Positions 2,927-43,494 of a stretch of DNA of 64,000 nucleotides are shown one piece after another (position 1 is the first letter of the stretch; each line of letters opens with the position of its first letter). Both the position numbers and the translations under genes were made by a program. The stretch comes from Thioalbus denitrificans (GTDB lineage: Bacteria > Pseudomonadota > Gammaproteobacteria > DSM-26407): assembly GCF_003337735.1 (NCBI RefSeq), contig NZ_QPJY01000007.1, forward strand, positions 1 through 64,000, read 5' to 3'. The notes under the pieces are model-generated. The model saw nothing but the letters and a program-made list of their open reading frames with translations, was not told where the DNA came from and searched no databases.

Positions 2927-4330
2927 ATGCCCGAGAACGTGTACGCCAAGGAGCCAGTGGACGCCGCCACCGAGGCCCTGCGCGTGCCGCCGCACTCCCT
3001 CGAGGCGGAGCAGTCGGTCATCGGCGGCCTGATGCTGGACAACCGGGCCTGGGAGCGCATCGCCGACCGGGTGGGTGAAGAGGACTTCTACCGCCAGGAC
3101 CACCGCCTCATATTCCGCGCCGTGCGCGAGCTGGTGGAGACCGACCGGCCCTGCGACGTCCTCACCCTGTCCGAGACCCTGGAGAGCCGCCGGGAGCTGG
3201 ATGCGGCGGGGGGGCTCGCCTATCTCGCCGAGCTGGCCAAGAACACCCCCAGCGTGGCCAACATCGGCGCCTACGCCGATATCGTCCGCGAGCGCTCGGT
3301 GCTGCGCCAGCTCATCGCGGTGGCCAACCGCATCGCCGATGCCGCCTTCAACCCCAAGGGGCGCGCCAGCGAGGAGCTGCTGGACGTGGCCGAGCAGGAG
3401 GTCTTCCGCATCGCCGAGCAGCGCTCGCGCGGCCGCGGCGGACCCCGGGGCATCAAGGAACTGCTCACCAAGGCGGTGGATCGCATCGACCACCTGTTCG
3501 AGCTCGACAACCCCATCACCGGCCTTTCCACCGGCTACGCCGATTTCGACGAGCTCACCTCGGGCCTGCAGTCCTCCGACCTGGTGATCGTGGCCGGCCG
3601 CCCGTCCATGGGCAAGACCACCTTCGCCATGAACCTGGCCGAGAACGCCGCGCTCAAGGGCGACAAGCCGGTGCTGGTGTTCAGCATGGAGATGCCCGGC
3701 GAGCAGCTGGTGATGCGCATGATGTCCTCGCTCGGCCGGATCGACCAGCAGCGGCTGCGCACCGGCAAGCTGGAGGACGAGGACTGGCCGCGCCTGACCT
3801 CCGCGGTGAGCCTGCTCTCCGAGGCCAGGATCTTCATTGACGACACCCCGGCCCTCACTCCCACCGAGGTGCGCGCCCGGGCCCGCCGCCTGGCCCGCGA
3901 GCACGACGGCCTGGGGCTCATCATGCTCGACTACCTGCAGCTCATGCAGGTGGCCGGCGGCGGCGAGAACCGGGCCACGGAAATCTCCGAGATCTCCCGC
4001 TCCCTCAAGGCCCTGGCGAAGGAGCTCCACGTCCCCGTGATCGCCCTCTCGCAGCTCAACCGCAGCCTGGAGCAGCGTCCCAACAAGCGCCCGGTGATGT
4101 CGGACCTGCGCGAGTCGGGCGCCATCGAGCAGGACGCCGACGTCATCGTCTTCATCTACCGCGACGAGGTGTACAACGAGGACAGCCCCGACAAGGGCAC
4201 CGCCGAGATCATCATCGGCAAGCAGCGCAACGGTCCCATCGGCACCGTGCGGCTGGCCTTCCTCGGCCGCTACACCCGCTTCGAGAACTTCACCCCCGAC
4301 CGCTTCGGCGACGGCGGCTTCGCGGCCTGA
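2927..4330 (+). CDS. dnaB: Replicative DNA helicase DnaB
   Basis: DnaB is the hexameric 5'-3' helicase that drives the replication fork. The 467-aa length is normal. The N-terminal domain opens with LRVPPHSLEAEQSVIGGLML. The RecA-like core has Walker A GRPSMGKTTFAMN (about residues 224-236), Walker B LIMLDYLQLM and the arginine-finger region KRPVMSDLRESGAIEQDADV. No intein is seen at the usual insertion points. Its place behind rplI is the common gammaproteobacterial arrangement. Confidence 0.98.
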   Translation: MPENVYAKEPVDAATEALRVPPHSLEAEQSVIGGLMLDNRAWERIADRVGEEDFYRQDHRLIFRAVRELVETDRPCDVLTLSETLESRRELDAAGGLAYLAELAKNTPSVANIGAYADIVRERSVLRQLIAVANRIADAAFNPKGRASEELLDVAEQEVFRIAEQRSRGRGGPRGIKELLTKAVDRIDHLFELDNPITGLSTGYADFDELTSGLQSSDLVIVAGRPSMGKTTFAMNLAENAALKGDKPVLVFSMEMPGEQLVMRMMSSLGRIDQQRLRTGKLEDEDWPRLTSAVSLLSEARIFIDDTPALTPTEVRARARRLAREHDGLGLIMLDYLQLMQVAGGGENRATEISEISRSLKALAKELHVPVIALSQLNRSLEQRPNKRPVMSDLRESGAIEQDADVIVFIYRDEVYNEDSPDKGTAEIIIGKQRNGPIGTVRLAFLGRYTRFENFTPDRFGDGGFAA

Positions 4331-4468
4331 GCGAACGCGGCCGCAGCTGCGGACTTCATCCGTAGGGCGGCGATACGGGATCGGTTTACCGGGTGGCCGC
4401 CACGATCCGCTCCCGTAATATCCTCGCCTGCCCAGTCACCCCCGCCCGGCGCCTGAATTCCGGCCCCA

Positions 4469-4496
4469 TTGATAATCCTCATTACATCAGTATTTC
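4469..4496 (+). promoter_or_regulatory. Candidate promoter upstream of the octaheme cytochrome
   Basis: TTGATA (4469-4474) and TATTTC (4491-4496) with a 16-bp spacer lie in the one AT-rich patch of the 253-bp gap after dnaB. I saw no further clear regulator site in the gap. Confidence 0.35.
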
Positions 4497-4583
4497 CGCA
4501 TGTGCTTGAATGCCGCCCGGCAGCGCGGGGAGTACCCGTGACGCCGCTGTAACCCGCCATTCCAGACGCTGCGGAAGATAATC

Positions 4584-6194
4584 ATGTCCTGTTCCAGAAT
4601 CATTCCCGGCGGGCTGCTGCTCGCCGGGCTGCTGCTGTGGCTGCCCCTGGCCGCCGCCACCGACGCCGGGTCCGGGATTCCGGCCTCCACCGCCGACCAC
4701 GGCAAGTTCGAGGTGCTCCAGGGCCCGTTCGAGTCCGGTCCGGAGGTGACCCGGGCCTGCCTGACCTGCCATACCGAGGCGGCCCGGCAGCTGCACCGGA
4801 CCAAGCACTGGACCTGGGAGTACCAGCACCCCGAAACCGGCCAGGTGCTGGGCAAGAAGCACGAGCCCAACGTCTTCTGCGGCAGCATCCTCTCCAACTA
4901 CCCGCGCTGCACCAGCTGTCACATCGGCTACGGCTGGGAGGATGCCAGCTTCGACTTCTCCTCCGAGGAGAACGTGGACTGCCTGGCCTGCCACGACACC
5001 ACCGGGACCTACTCCAAGTTCCCCACCGACGCCGGGCACCCCCTCTACGCGGACCGGATGGTGAAGGGCAAGCTGGTGCAGGCGCCCGACCTGGCGCAGG
5101 TGGCCCAGCACGTGGGCATGACCAGCCGCGAGACCTGCGGCGCGTGCCACTTCAGCGGCGGCGGTCACGACGGTGTCAAGCACGGCGACCTGGACAGCTC
5201 GCTCATCGAGCCCGACCAGGCGCTCGACGTGCACATGGCCGCCGACGGCCTGGACTTCACCTGCGCCACCTGCCACACCAGCGACCGGCACCAGGTGGAC
5301 GGCAGCCGTTACCGGATGACCGCGAAGGACGGCCACGGGGTGGACATCCCCGGGCGCGACGACGGCCGCGCCTCGTGCGAATCCTGCCACGGCGACCGGC
5401 CCCATGCCGCCGACCACGACAAGCTCAACGATCACACCGACCGGGTCGCCTGCCAGACCTGCCACATCCCCGAGTTCGCCCGCGGCGGCATCGCCACCAA
5501 GACCTTCTGGGACTGGTCCACGGCCACCCGGCTGGACGAGAACGGCAAGCCCATCACCCGGCTCGACGAGCACGGCCACGCCGTCTACCTGAGCACCAAG
5601 GGCGACTTCAGGTTCGGCGAGAACGTGCAGCCCGAGTACCACTGGTTCAACGGCACGGTGAAGTACACCAGGTTCGGCGACGCCATCGATCCGGACCAGG
5701 TGGTATCGGTGAACGACATCGAGGGCAGCGCCGACGATCCCGATTCCCGCATCTGGCCCTTCAAGGTGATGCGCGGCCGCCAGCCCTACGACAAGGTGAC
5801 CAACACCCTGCTGGTCACCCATGTGTTCGGCAAGGACGACACCGCCCTGTGGACCAACTTCGACTGGTCCAGGGCGCTCGGGGCCGGCATGGCCGAGGCG
5901 GTGGCGGTGGGGGAGGTCACGCAGCCCTTCAGCGGCGAGTACGGCTTCGTGGACAACCGGATGTTCTGGCCCATCACCCACATGGTGGCGCCCGCCGGGG
6001 AGGCCCTCGGCTGCGCCGAGTGCCACAGCCAGGACGGCCGGCTGGCAAACCTGGAGGGCGTCTACATCCCCGGCCGCGACGCCTTCGGCATCCTCGACAC
6101 CATCGGCTGGATTGTGGTGGTGCTGACGCTGCTGGGCGCCCTGGCCCACGGTATCGCCCGGTTCCTCGTCAAGCGCAAGCCGCGGGAGGCCTGA
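4584..6194 (+). CDS. Octaheme c-type cytochrome of the tetrathionate reductase (OTR) family, membrane-anchored
   Basis: A 536-aa exported multiheme cytochrome. A signal peptide (residues 1-25, GGLLLAGLLLWLPLAAA) is followed by eight CxxCH heme sites at C59, C109, C133, C185, C227, C265, C290 and C477, with a helix at about 503-527 and a basic end that should anchor it in the inner membrane facing the periplasm. Number and spacing of hemes match the octaheme tetrathionate reductase family. Its Shewanella member reduces tetrathionate, nitrite and hydroxylamine in vitro through a lysine-ligated heme; a lysine in RTKHWTW (about K74) is a candidate for that ligand here. The physiological substrate is unknown. 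It ends 2 nt before a cytochrome b gene, its likely quinone-side partner. Confidence 0.88.
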   Translation: MSCSRIIPGGLLLAGLLLWLPLAAATDAGSGIPASTADHGKFEVLQGPFESGPEVTRACLTCHTEAARQLHRTKHWTWEYQHPETGQVLGKKHEPNVFCGSILSNYPRCTSCHIGYGWEDASFDFSSEENVDCLACHDTTGTYSKFPTDAGHPLYADRMVKGKLVQAPDLAQVAQHVGMTSRETCGACHFSGGGHDGVKHGDLDSSLIEPDQALDVHMAADGLDFTCATCHTSDRHQVDGSRYRMTAKDGHGVDIPGRDDGRASCESCHGDRPHAADHDKLNDHTDRVACQTCHIPEFARGGIATKTFWDWSTATRLDENGKPITRLDEHGHAVYLSTKGDFRFGENVQPEYHWFNGTVKYTRFGDAIDPDQVVSVNDIEGSADDPDSRIWPFKVMRGRQPYDKVTNTLLVTHVFGKDDTALWTNFDWSRALGAGMAEAVAVGEVTQPFSGEYGFVDNRMFWPITHMVAPAGEALGCAECHSQDGRLANLEGVYIPGRDAFGILDTIGWIVVVLTLLGALAHGIARFLVKRKPREA

Positions 6195-6196
6195 TC

Positions 6197-6814
6197 ATGA
6201 CCAAGCTCTATCTCTACGCCCGCTTCGAGCGGTTCTGGCACTGGACCCAGGCCGGTCTCATCATCTGGCTGATGATCACCGGCTTCGAGATCCACGGCGA
6301 GTATGAACTGCTCGGCTTCGGCCGCGCGGTGCAGATCCACACCCTGCTGGCCTGGGCCCTGATGGTGCTATGGGTGTTCGCCATCTTCTGGCACCTCACC
6401 ACCGGCGCCTTCCGGCACTACCTGCCCAGCAACCCGCTGCCCCAGTGCGCCAAGAGCCTGGCGGAGGTGGCCCGCTACTACGCCCTGGGCACCTTCCTGG
6501 GCGAGAAGCACCCGTTCCGGAAGTCGGTGGAGGCCAAGCACAACCCGCTGCAGCGCATGGCCTACCTGCTCTTCTTCGCCACCCTGGTGGCGCCCGTCAT
6601 CTGGGTCTCGGGCCTGGCCTACCTCTTCTACCCGCAGTGGCAGGGGCAGGGCCCCGGCTGGCTGAGCCTCGGCACCGTGGCCATCGTGCACACGGCCGCC
6701 GCCTTCGGCATGCTCATCTTCTTCATCGCCCACGTCTACATGGCGACCATGGGCAAGACGGTCTTCTCCCTCATCCGGGGAATGATCACCGGCTACGAGG
6801 AGGTGGAGCACTGA
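6197..6814 (+). CDS. Di-heme cytochrome b (hydrogenase/thiosulfate-reductase b-type subunit family)
   Basis: A 205-aa inner-membrane protein with four predicted helices (about 13-33, 48-70, 120-145, 160-185). Histidines H15, H48, H66, H165 and H179 lie within or beside the helices, as expected for a b-type cytochrome with two hemes. The start resembles families that pass electrons between quinones and periplasmic oxidoreductases. The ATG lies 2 nt after the stop of the octaheme cytochrome, so the two are surely co-translated and likely form one quinone-linked complex (inference). Confidence 0.88.
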   Translation: MTKLYLYARFERFWHWTQAGLIIWLMITGFEIHGEYELLGFGRAVQIHTLLAWALMVLWVFAIFWHLTTGAFRHYLPSNPLPQCAKSLAEVARYYALGTFLGEKHPFRKSVEAKHNPLQRMAYLLFFATLVAPVIWVSGLAYLFYPQWQGQGPGWLSLGTVAIVHTAAAFGMLIFFIAHVYMATMGKTVFSLIRGMITGYEEVEH

Positions 6815-6944
6815 GCCCCGTTCACCGTGGCCGGTGCAGCCGTCCCCTTCCGGCCCGAATCCGCGCGATCCATGATCCAGCGCCTGCGCGGGCGGGGAGG
6901 GTTGCGGTAAAGTAGCGCTCTTCCCTGGAAGCGAAGAGGCGCGG

Positions 6945-8303
6945 ATGGCGAAGCAGAAGATCAGCTACTGCTGCACGGAGTGCGGCGCCCAGTCCCCGAA
7001 GTGGGCCGGCCAGTGCCCGGACTGCGGCGGCTGGAACACTCTGGTGGAGGTAGCCGAGGAGGGGGTGGCCCGCGGTCCCCGCTTCGCCGGCTACGCCGGC
7101 GCGCTCTCCGAGGTCAAGCGGCTGGAGGACGTGAGCCTCGAGGCCGAGCCGCGCCTGCCCACCGGCCTGGTGGAGCTCGACCGGGTGCTCGGCGGCGGGC
7201 TGGTGGCCGGCTCGGTGGTGCTCATCGGCGGCGACCCCGGCATCGGCAAGTCCACGCTCCTGTCCCAGGCGCTGGCCCACCTGGGCACCGGCCATCCCTG
7301 CCTCTACATCACCGGCGAGGAGAGCCTGCAGCAGGTGGCGCTGCGGGTGCGCCGCCTGGGGCTGCCCGATGCGGGCCTGCGGCTGCTGGCCGAAACCCGG
7401 GTGGAGCGCATGCTCCAGGTGCTGGAGCAGGAGCGCCCGCAGGTGGCGGTGGTGGACTCCATCCAGACCGTCTACACCGAGCAGTTGAGCTCGGCCCCCG
7501 GCTCGGTGGCCCAGGTGCGCGACAGCGCCGCGGGCCTGGTGCGCTTCGCCAAGCAGACCGGCACCGCGCTGTTCCTGGTCGGCCACGTCACCAAGGAGGG
7601 GACACTGGCCGGCCCCCGCGTGCTCGAGCACATGGTGGACACGGTGCTCTACTTCGAGGGCGAGCGGGGGGCGCGCTTCCGGGTCATCCGCGCGGTCAAG
7701 AACCGTTTCGGCGCGGTCAACGAGCTGGGCGTGTTCGCCATGTCCGACCGCGGGCTGAAGGAGGTGAGCAACCCCTCGGCCATCTTCCTCTCCGGCTTCG
7801 AGGCGAGCGTGCCCGGCAGCGTCATCATGGCCACCTGGGAGGGCAGCCGGCCGCTGCTGGTGGAGGTGCAGGCGCTGGTGGACCAGAGTCACCTCGGCAA
7901 TCCGCGCCGGCTCACCCTCGGCTTCGACCAGAACCGCATCGCCATGCTGCTGGCGGTGCTCCACCGCCACGGCGGCGTGGCCACCTTCGACCAGGACGTG
8001 TTCGTGAACATGGTGGGCGGCGTGCGCGTCACCGAGACGGGCGCCGACCTGCCGGTGCTGCTGGCGGTGCTCTCCAGCCTGCGCAACCGGCCCCTGCCGG
8101 AGGGGCTGGCGGCCTTCGGGGAGGTGGGGCTGTCGGGCGAGATCCGCCCCGTCCAGGGTGGGCAGGAGCGGCTGCGGGAGGCGGCCAAGCACGGCTTCCG
8201 CCGCGTGCTGATGCCGCGGGCCAACGCGCCGAAGCGGGCGCCGCCGGGCGTGGAGGTGGTGGCGGTGCAGCGCCTCGCCGAGGCCATCGATGCCATCGGC
8301 TGA
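6945..8303 (+). CDS. radA: DNA repair protein RadA
   Basis: RadA (Sms) is a DnaB-like helicase that helps process recombination intermediates. The 452-aa protein has an N-terminal C4 zinc finger (C10, C13, C24, C27) and Walker A GGDPGIGKST at about 95-104. The RadA signature KNRFG lies in VIRAVKNRFGAVNELG. A Lon-protease-like C-terminal domain containing VRVTETGADLPVLLA completes it. All parts are intact. It is probably transcribed alone; 192 bp separate it from the next gene. Confidence 0.98.
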   Translation: MAKQKISYCCTECGAQSPKWAGQCPDCGGWNTLVEVAEEGVARGPRFAGYAGALSEVKRLEDVSLEAEPRLPTGLVELDRVLGGGLVAGSVVLIGGDPGIGKSTLLSQALAHLGTGHPCLYITGEESLQQVALRVRRLGLPDAGLRLLAETRVERMLQVLEQERPQVAVVDSIQTVYTEQLSSAPGSVAQVRDSAAGLVRFAKQTGTALFLVGHVTKEGTLAGPRVLEHMVDTVLYFEGERGARFRVIRAVKNRFGAVNELGVFAMSDRGLKEVSNPSAIFLSGFEASVPGSVIMATWEGSRPLLVEVQALVDQSHLGNPRRLTLGFDQNRIAMLLAVLHRHGGVATFDQDVFVNMVGGVRVTETGADLPVLLAVLSSLRNRPLPEGLAAFGEVGLSGEIRPVQGGQERLREAAKHGFRRVLMPRANAPKRAPPGVEVVAVQRLAEAIDAIG

Positions 8304-8495
8304 CCCGGCCGCTGCCGGACACCCGCCAGCGCGATCCCGCGGCAGGCGGCACGGGGGCTGCTAGACTCTCACGGCGGTGTCCCGCATCCCGCCGGCACGA
8401 CCCCGGGCCGATTCGGCGGCGCCGGGAGCGCTTCACGTTCCCCGGGCCTCCGGGCGGGTAAGCTGGCGCTATCGTGGAGTCGACGGGAGAGGTCT

Positions 8496-10298
<1,803 letters not shown>

Positions 10299-43450: not shown

Positions 43451-43494
43451 CTAATAAACAGATTTTCTGGCCGGATTGCTTTGACCCGGATCAA
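43451..43494 (-). promoter_or_regulatory. FNR/ANR-type box with -10 element for the acyl-carrier-like gene
   Basis: TTGAC-N4-ATCAA (43481-43494) differs from the FNR consensus TTGAT-N4-ATCAA at one position. On the minus strand a TATTAG (43456-43451) lies 34 bp from the box centre, near the spacing of class II FNR promoters (about 32). Transcription would reach the gene starting at 43323 after a leader of about 120 nt. No open frame occupies that leader. Confidence 0.5.

Follow-up and report, generated by a model that had tools for sequence, protein, structure and literature searches.

An octaheme tetrathionate reductase-family cytochrome with a C-terminal membrane helix and its probably quinone-linked cytochrome b in Thioalbus denitrificans

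Within the 64,000-nucleotide stretch of Thioalbus denitrificans DNA analysed here (the window), two adjacent forward-strand genes lie between dnaB (2927–4330) and radA (6945–8303): one for a 536-residue octaheme cytochrome c of the octaheme tetrathionate reductase (OTR) family (4584–6194) and one for a 205-residue cytochrome b (6197–6814), which starts 2 nt past the OTR stop codon (TGA, 6192–6194). Their G+C contents are 69% and 66%, respectively (window, 70%), no sulfur gene lies beside this OTR copy, and no promoter-like or terminator-like sites were found at 4200–7100. The octaheme protein begins with a probable signal peptide (residues 1–25; 4584–4658; hydrophobic stretch at residues 6–24, low-confidence AlphaFold helix at residues 10–18, end judged by eye) and carries eight CxxCH heme sites across residues 59–481 (4758–6026; motif scan, with starts at residues 59, 109, 133, 185, 227, 265, 290 and 477). 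The TIGR04315 profile matched it at 631.2 bits (E = 9.8 × 10−190), exceeding the curated cut-off of 375, and neither the NrfA (PF02335) nor the HAO families were among its reported Pfam and NCBIfam matches. The Shewanella octaheme cytochrome 1SP3 was the sole PDB sequence match at E ≤ 0.001 (E = 1.2 × 10−120); an AlphaFold model built from 40 aligned proteins (mean pLDDT 83) superposed on it with Z = 41.5 and an rmsd of 2.0 over 422 residues, and the second-best of the 100 chains compared scored only Z = 2.8. HAO (4n4n, Z = 2.0), undecaheme and pentaheme (5ze8, Z = 2.8) chains scored Z = 2.0–2.8 against the model, too weakly for use. The product of 4584–6194 is a member of the OTR (tetrathionate/nitrite reductase) family, and the eight CxxCH sites in an OTR pattern that an earlier note had read from this DNA are confirmed by motif, profile and fold alike.

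Position 153 of the 1SP3 chain, which we take to be the number of the heme-2 lysine ligand of Shewanella OTR, is the lysine of VKHGDLDSS and aligns with K199 of the window protein (codon 5178–5180). This candidate heme-2 ligand is Lys in 134 of 135 aligned rows (rows below 300 bits were dropped except L113, as were L001, L114 and three identical sequences), and a non-heme cysteine, C99 (codon 4878–4880; C64 of 1SP3), is Cys in 130 of the 131 rows with any residue at that position; a 15-heme Chloroflexota protein, L076, is the sole exception for both. Across the 40 aligned sequences, seven non-motif histidines (39, 75, 217, 236, 274, 284 and 466) did not vary, and H200 was nearly as well conserved. 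In OTR, seven hemes are described as bis-His-ligated, and catalytic heme 2 as having a conserved lysine (PMC11024163; the lysine ligand is stated in PMC12285233 too). The pattern predicted from the sequence is thus OTR-like, with Lys at the heme-2 ligand position and seven invariant His for the other hemes, rather than the bis-His ligation of all eight hemes that the earlier note had associated with electron transfer alone. That note's own candidate for the unusual ligand, K74, was mistaken: its counterpart in 1SP3 is a serine, and just 32 of the 135 rows have Lys there. The correction from K74 to K199 identifies the right residue for mutation.

The OTR protein ends in a C-terminal membrane helix (residues 502–530; 6087–6173), already proposed in the earlier note and confirmed by a hydrophobic stretch at residues 503–521 and by the AlphaFold model (block pLDDT 88–96). 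Within the helix, H522 (codon 6147–6149) is His in 123 of the 125 anchored rows (the exceptions being a contig end and an altered tail) and R526 is kept in 122 of the 125, with helices assigned across rows by a simple hydropathy cut-off. No description of this tail histidine was met in the open-licence literature, in searches not aimed at it. The downstream protein likewise agrees with the note's di-heme cytochrome b: it matches PF01292 (80.6 bits, E = 1.6 × 10−22, exceeding the gathering cut-off of 30.1), is modelled with four long helices (mean pLDDT 92.5) and has four histidines, H15, H48, H165 and H179, each conserved in every one of 123 rows. Given E values of 9.8 × 10−190 (TIGR04315), 1.2 × 10−120 (1SP3) and 1.6 × 10−22 (PF01292), the matches of the two proteins are not due to chance.

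Among NCBIfam families, the best match of the cytochrome b was NF011582 (thiosulfate reductase cytochrome b; 111.4 bits), below its equivalog cut-off of 204 bits. With the cytochrome b model, no Foldseek match reached E = 0.001; the top matches were FdnI (1KQF_C; E = 3.1 × 10−3, TM 0.66) and HyaC (4GD3_A; E = 0.057, TM 0.51), and a profile search recovered HyaC (E = 4.2 × 10−6), with FdnI not among its matches. The four invariant histidines align with heme-ligand histidines of FdnI (H18, H57, H155 and H169) and HyaC (H22, H63, H184 and H198), and the partner subunits FdnH and HyaA have a histidine in their C-terminal tails, in FdnH as the G-x3-H also present in OTR. The window pair thus resembles Escherichia coli FdnGHI and HyaABC in its four-helix cytochrome b and tail histidine, but its periplasmic module is unrelated to their molybdenum formate dehydrogenase and NiFe hydrogenase. 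The cytochrome b subunit of the thiosulfate reductase PhsABC is the best NCBIfam match, at a score below cut-off; catalysis by Phs resides in a molybdenum subunit and not in an octaheme protein. By analogy, we infer a quinone-linked complex in the style of formate dehydrogenase N, in which the C-terminal helix would pack against a diheme cytochrome b with a cytoplasm-facing quinone site. The cytochrome b probably connects OTR to the quinone pool, and the quinone link of the earlier note is supported as probable by this dedicated partner.

To place the pair among its relatives, we compared 141 OTR rows (among them L001, the window gene itself, a distant gene counted twice (L089/L114) and a few repeats between collections, and leaving out the fragments or repeats L088, L090, L091, L094, L096, L102 and L111 and matches below 120 bits). 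Most (123 of the 141) combined a hydrophobic tail with a cytochrome b gene directly downstream. In three, the cytochrome b was present but the tail fell below the hydropathy cut-off, the helix being weaker yet visible in two and the tail altered in the third. For four rows with the tail, among them three 15-heme proteins, no cytochrome b was detected; a further eight had neither (four of these being Shewanella-like soluble proteins that group near 1SP3) and three ran off the contig. Helix and cytochrome b were strongly associated (Fisher P = 3 × 10−8, contig ends excluded, for rows that are related rather than independent), and sequence identities of the two subunits were correlated over 121 pairs (rho = 0.54; reached in 0 of 300 permutations). 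On a midpoint-rooted tree, soluble and anchored rows fell on opposite sides of one weakly supported branch (SH-aLRT 69), and with the long branch L113 set aside, the soluble group received an SH-aLRT of 97. The anchored arrangement is the commonest among the collected relatives, not an unusual one, in a locus sample (the best 80 of 160 confirmed matches to the window OTR) that leans to close, anchored relatives; the window locus is ordinary for its family. Shewanella oneidensis OTR shares the fold, the eight CxxCH sites and the equivalents of K199 (Lys153) and C99 (Cys64), but is soluble and lacks the C-terminal helix, as the earlier note had it; the Shewanella-like relatives in our set also lack the helix and an adjacent cytochrome b.

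The anchored layout is already in print (PMC4911364 and PMC6449678). BOGUAY_2386 of a Beggiatoaceae bacterium is described as an OTR-type protein with predicted N- and C-terminal helices and a thiosulfate-reductase-type cytochrome b gene downstream (PMC6449678); compared by description, it differs in that further thiosulfate/polysulfide reductase genes follow there, whereas radA follows here. In Thermosulfurimonas dismutans, an octaheme tetrathionate reductase was proposed to be membrane-linked via a nearby cytochrome b (TDIS_1882/TDIS_1883; PMC4911364), in a layout known from genome annotation alone and again compared by description. For Shewanella OTR, the reported electron source is CymA via STC (PMC4484225).

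The host genome has matches to SoxB, SoxA/TsdA-type cytochromes and cytochrome d1-type genes and none to PF02335 (NrfA), and the organism is probably a thiosulfate oxidizer with denitrification genes. It also contains a second OTR gene (C3:143710–145209) with its own cytochrome b (C3:143123–143680); this pair, like that of the window, is complete, and occupies approximately 7043–9603 on the reverse strand of locus L003 (G000:C3:136000–152000), with an EF-hand-like open reading frame, recognized by eye, upstream. The second OTR is not a recent duplicate, being 54% identical to the window copy and placed in a different clade. In the only other genome of the genus that was searched (87% complete), OTR occurs once, and this copy groups with the second host copy. 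More broadly, TIGR04315 exceeded its cut-off in 22 of the 274 genomes sampled from the class and in 45 of the 398 sampled from the phylum, and OTR has been reported from 73 sediment genomes of 14 phyla (PMC9040765).

The FNR-like site nearest the window OTR (4469–4482) has two mismatches, and 14 sites with up to two mismatches occur in the window (4.0 expected; 0 of 100 shuffles reached 14), spread over 60–64000 (for example, at 43481–43494); one weak site thus says little about an anaerobic promoter for this copy and was given no weight. Perfect FNR-type palindromes preceded OTR in 7 of 132 rows, versus 1 of 705 windows drawn at random from the same loci (two of the 7 rows being one sequence and the control windows including coding DNA), which suggests anaerobic use of OTR in some relatives; loci with such palindromes near the OTR start include L016, L033, L059, L070, L081 and L084.

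To assess possible substrates, we examined gene neighbourhoods in the loci of the best 80 of the 160 confirmed matches, with L003 also included in the clustering. Rhodanese genes occurred in 13 of the 80 OTR loci (17 genes versus 2.0 expected, or about 15 after three near-identical loci were collapsed), with the query cut from the OTR neighbour clusters themselves and the expectation taken from the density of 394 matches in 144.4 Mb of 39 genomes (those of L048 and L080 left out); the link is seen only in some Betaproteobacteria-like and Bacteroidota loci. Of 26 recurrent neighbour clusters, two were OTR and the cytochrome b themselves; representatives of others resembled DUF302 proteins (8 loci), redoxins (9) and sulfur transporters (4), and no N-oxide enzyme was recognized among the ten representatives scanned, two of which had no family. 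The DUF302 gene (L012, L030, L037, L039, L043, L044 and two more) in most cases closely precedes OTR in the same orientation. By eye, genes resembling cytochrome bd oxidase subunits were seen near OTR in six loci (L005, L011, L036, L049, L050 and L057).

Biochemical evidence comes from purified BOGUAY_2386, which reduced tetrathionate at 93 and 22 μmol min−1 mg−1 in two preparations and nitrite at 1.29 μmol min−1 mg−1 in another, a 17- to 73-fold difference between different preparations (PMC6449678). Tetrathionate, one of the substrates suggested by the earlier note, is thus reduced by an anchored homologue, and otr adjoins soxYZ in lucinid symbionts (PMC11237559). The rhodanese, redoxin and sulfur-transport neighbours of its relatives also point to a sulfur substrate, and we favour, at moderate odds, a sulfur compound over nitrite.

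Together, these results lead us, with moderate confidence, to interpret the pair as one quinone-linked oxidoreductase of the inner membrane, laid out like formate dehydrogenase N or hydrogenase 1 and reducing an oxidized sulfur compound. The periplasmic heme domain would reduce this compound at heme 2, with Lys199 as ligand and the conserved Cys99; tetrathionate, reduced to thiosulfate, is the likeliest candidate. The C-terminal helix would pack against the four-helix cytochrome b, which would draw electrons from quinol at a site probably close to H522 and the cytoplasmic side and hand them on, via two b hemes, to the c hemes, with nitrite and hydroxylamine reduction as side activities. The gene pair, its family, the conserved residues and the co-occurrence of helix and cytochrome b are observed; the physical complex, quinone site, electron direction and substrate are what these observations lead us to propose. 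Family and fold, K199, the seven invariant histidines, C99, the co-occurrence, the correlated subunit identities and the FdnI/HyaC likeness support the proposal, and its sulfur part draws on the published BOGUAY_2386 rates, the neighbours of relatives, the otr–soxYZ adjacency and the host SoxB and SoxA/TsdA-type genes. Against it stand the lack of a sulfur gene beside the window copy, the phylogenetically limited rhodanese link, the modest FdnI match in Foldseek and its absence from the profile search, nitrate ammonification by T. dismutans, and Caldithrix abyssi, an OTR carrier for which published growth tests gave no support for respiration of sulfur, thiosulfate or tetrathionate. In addition, proton-motive force would be wasted if quinol were oxidized at the cytoplasmic face to serve a high-potential acceptor. 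K199, C99, H522 and the four b-heme histidines make both the quinone coupling and the sulfur chemistry directly testable. Overall, the earlier note's family, helix, dedicated and probably quinone-linked cytochrome b and inclusion of tetrathionate stand, and its K74 ligand does not.

The same complex might instead use nitrite or hydroxylamine, as an NrfA-independent, quinol-linked ammonifying or detoxifying reductase. Shewanella OTR reduces both compounds (PMC4484225), BOGUAY_2386 reduces nitrite (PMC6449678), and T. dismutans, with its cytochrome-b-linked OTR, and Dissulfuribacter are reported to carry otr and to form ammonium from nitrate without a known NrfA (PMC5276818); the host's cytochrome d1-type genes mean that nitrite may be formed. 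The missing PF02335 match in the host, in line with matches above cut-off in only 8 of 39 OTR-bearing genomes, was rejected as proof of such a role, since it fits the sulfur and the nitrite reading alike. Set against the far higher tetrathionate activity of the anchored homologue and recurrent named neighbours that are sulfur-related, a nitrite role seems unlikely to us. We consider it quite unlikely that anchored OTRs, instead of being tethered tetrathionate reductases, constitute a separate functional class in which OTR was fitted with an anchor of the formate dehydrogenase/hydrogenase style (a helix with a near-invariant histidine and a diheme-type cytochrome b) to give an electrogenic quinone complex acting on low-potential sulfur species. 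Its substrates would be thiosulfate, polysulfide or the sulfane sulfur that neighbouring rhodaneses handle, and the complex would spend proton-motive force as PhsABC does or, run as an oxidase, conserve energy.

Cytochromes b of the FdnI and HyaC types work with quinone-reducing donors, and the fold and tail-histidine likeness found here, together with SoxB in the host, would suit a complex running in reverse, oxidizing thiosulfate or another reduced sulfur compound in the periplasm and reducing quinone as formate dehydrogenase N does. Published OTR assays are reductive, however, and the perfect FNR-type boxes of some relatives suggest anaerobic use, making this direction improbable. No less improbable, in our judgement, is a PhsABC-like reductase of thiosulfate, polysulfide or persulfide driven by proton-motive force: NF011582 is the best NCBIfam match of the cytochrome b, rhodaneses recur as neighbours and OTR heme potentials are low, in a range near the −100 to −450 mV of MmcA (PMC11024163), but the NF011582 match is below cut-off and no thiosulfate or polysulfide activity of OTR was found in the literature examined. 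Finally, OTR could be an electron conduit without catalysis at heme 2, as its relative MmcA is reported to be (PMC11024163) and as the loss of both K199 and C99 in the 15-heme L076 might indicate; we regard this as very remote for the window protein, which keeps both residues, as do nearly all relatives, and whose anchored homologue BOGUAY_2386 is catalytic (PMC6449678).

Two variants of the arrangement were seen among the relatives. Three Chloroflexota proteins with 15 CxxCH sites (L060:5827–8079, L068:5824–8064 and L076:1508–3904) consist of OTR, a seven-heme extension and a terminal helix, with no cytochrome b found and a 4Fe-4S protein nearby. In Bacteroidota, the partner cytochrome b can be extended by cytoplasmic-side PAS domains with no recognized output domain: Pfam PAS was not found in the long L079 protein (3538–4626) or the short cytochromes b of L078 and L084, but was found in L071:7453–8790 and L080:7452–8636, and similar extensions were visible by eye in L073, L074, L081 and L082. 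A respiratory cytochrome b that carries its own sensor would merit closer study.
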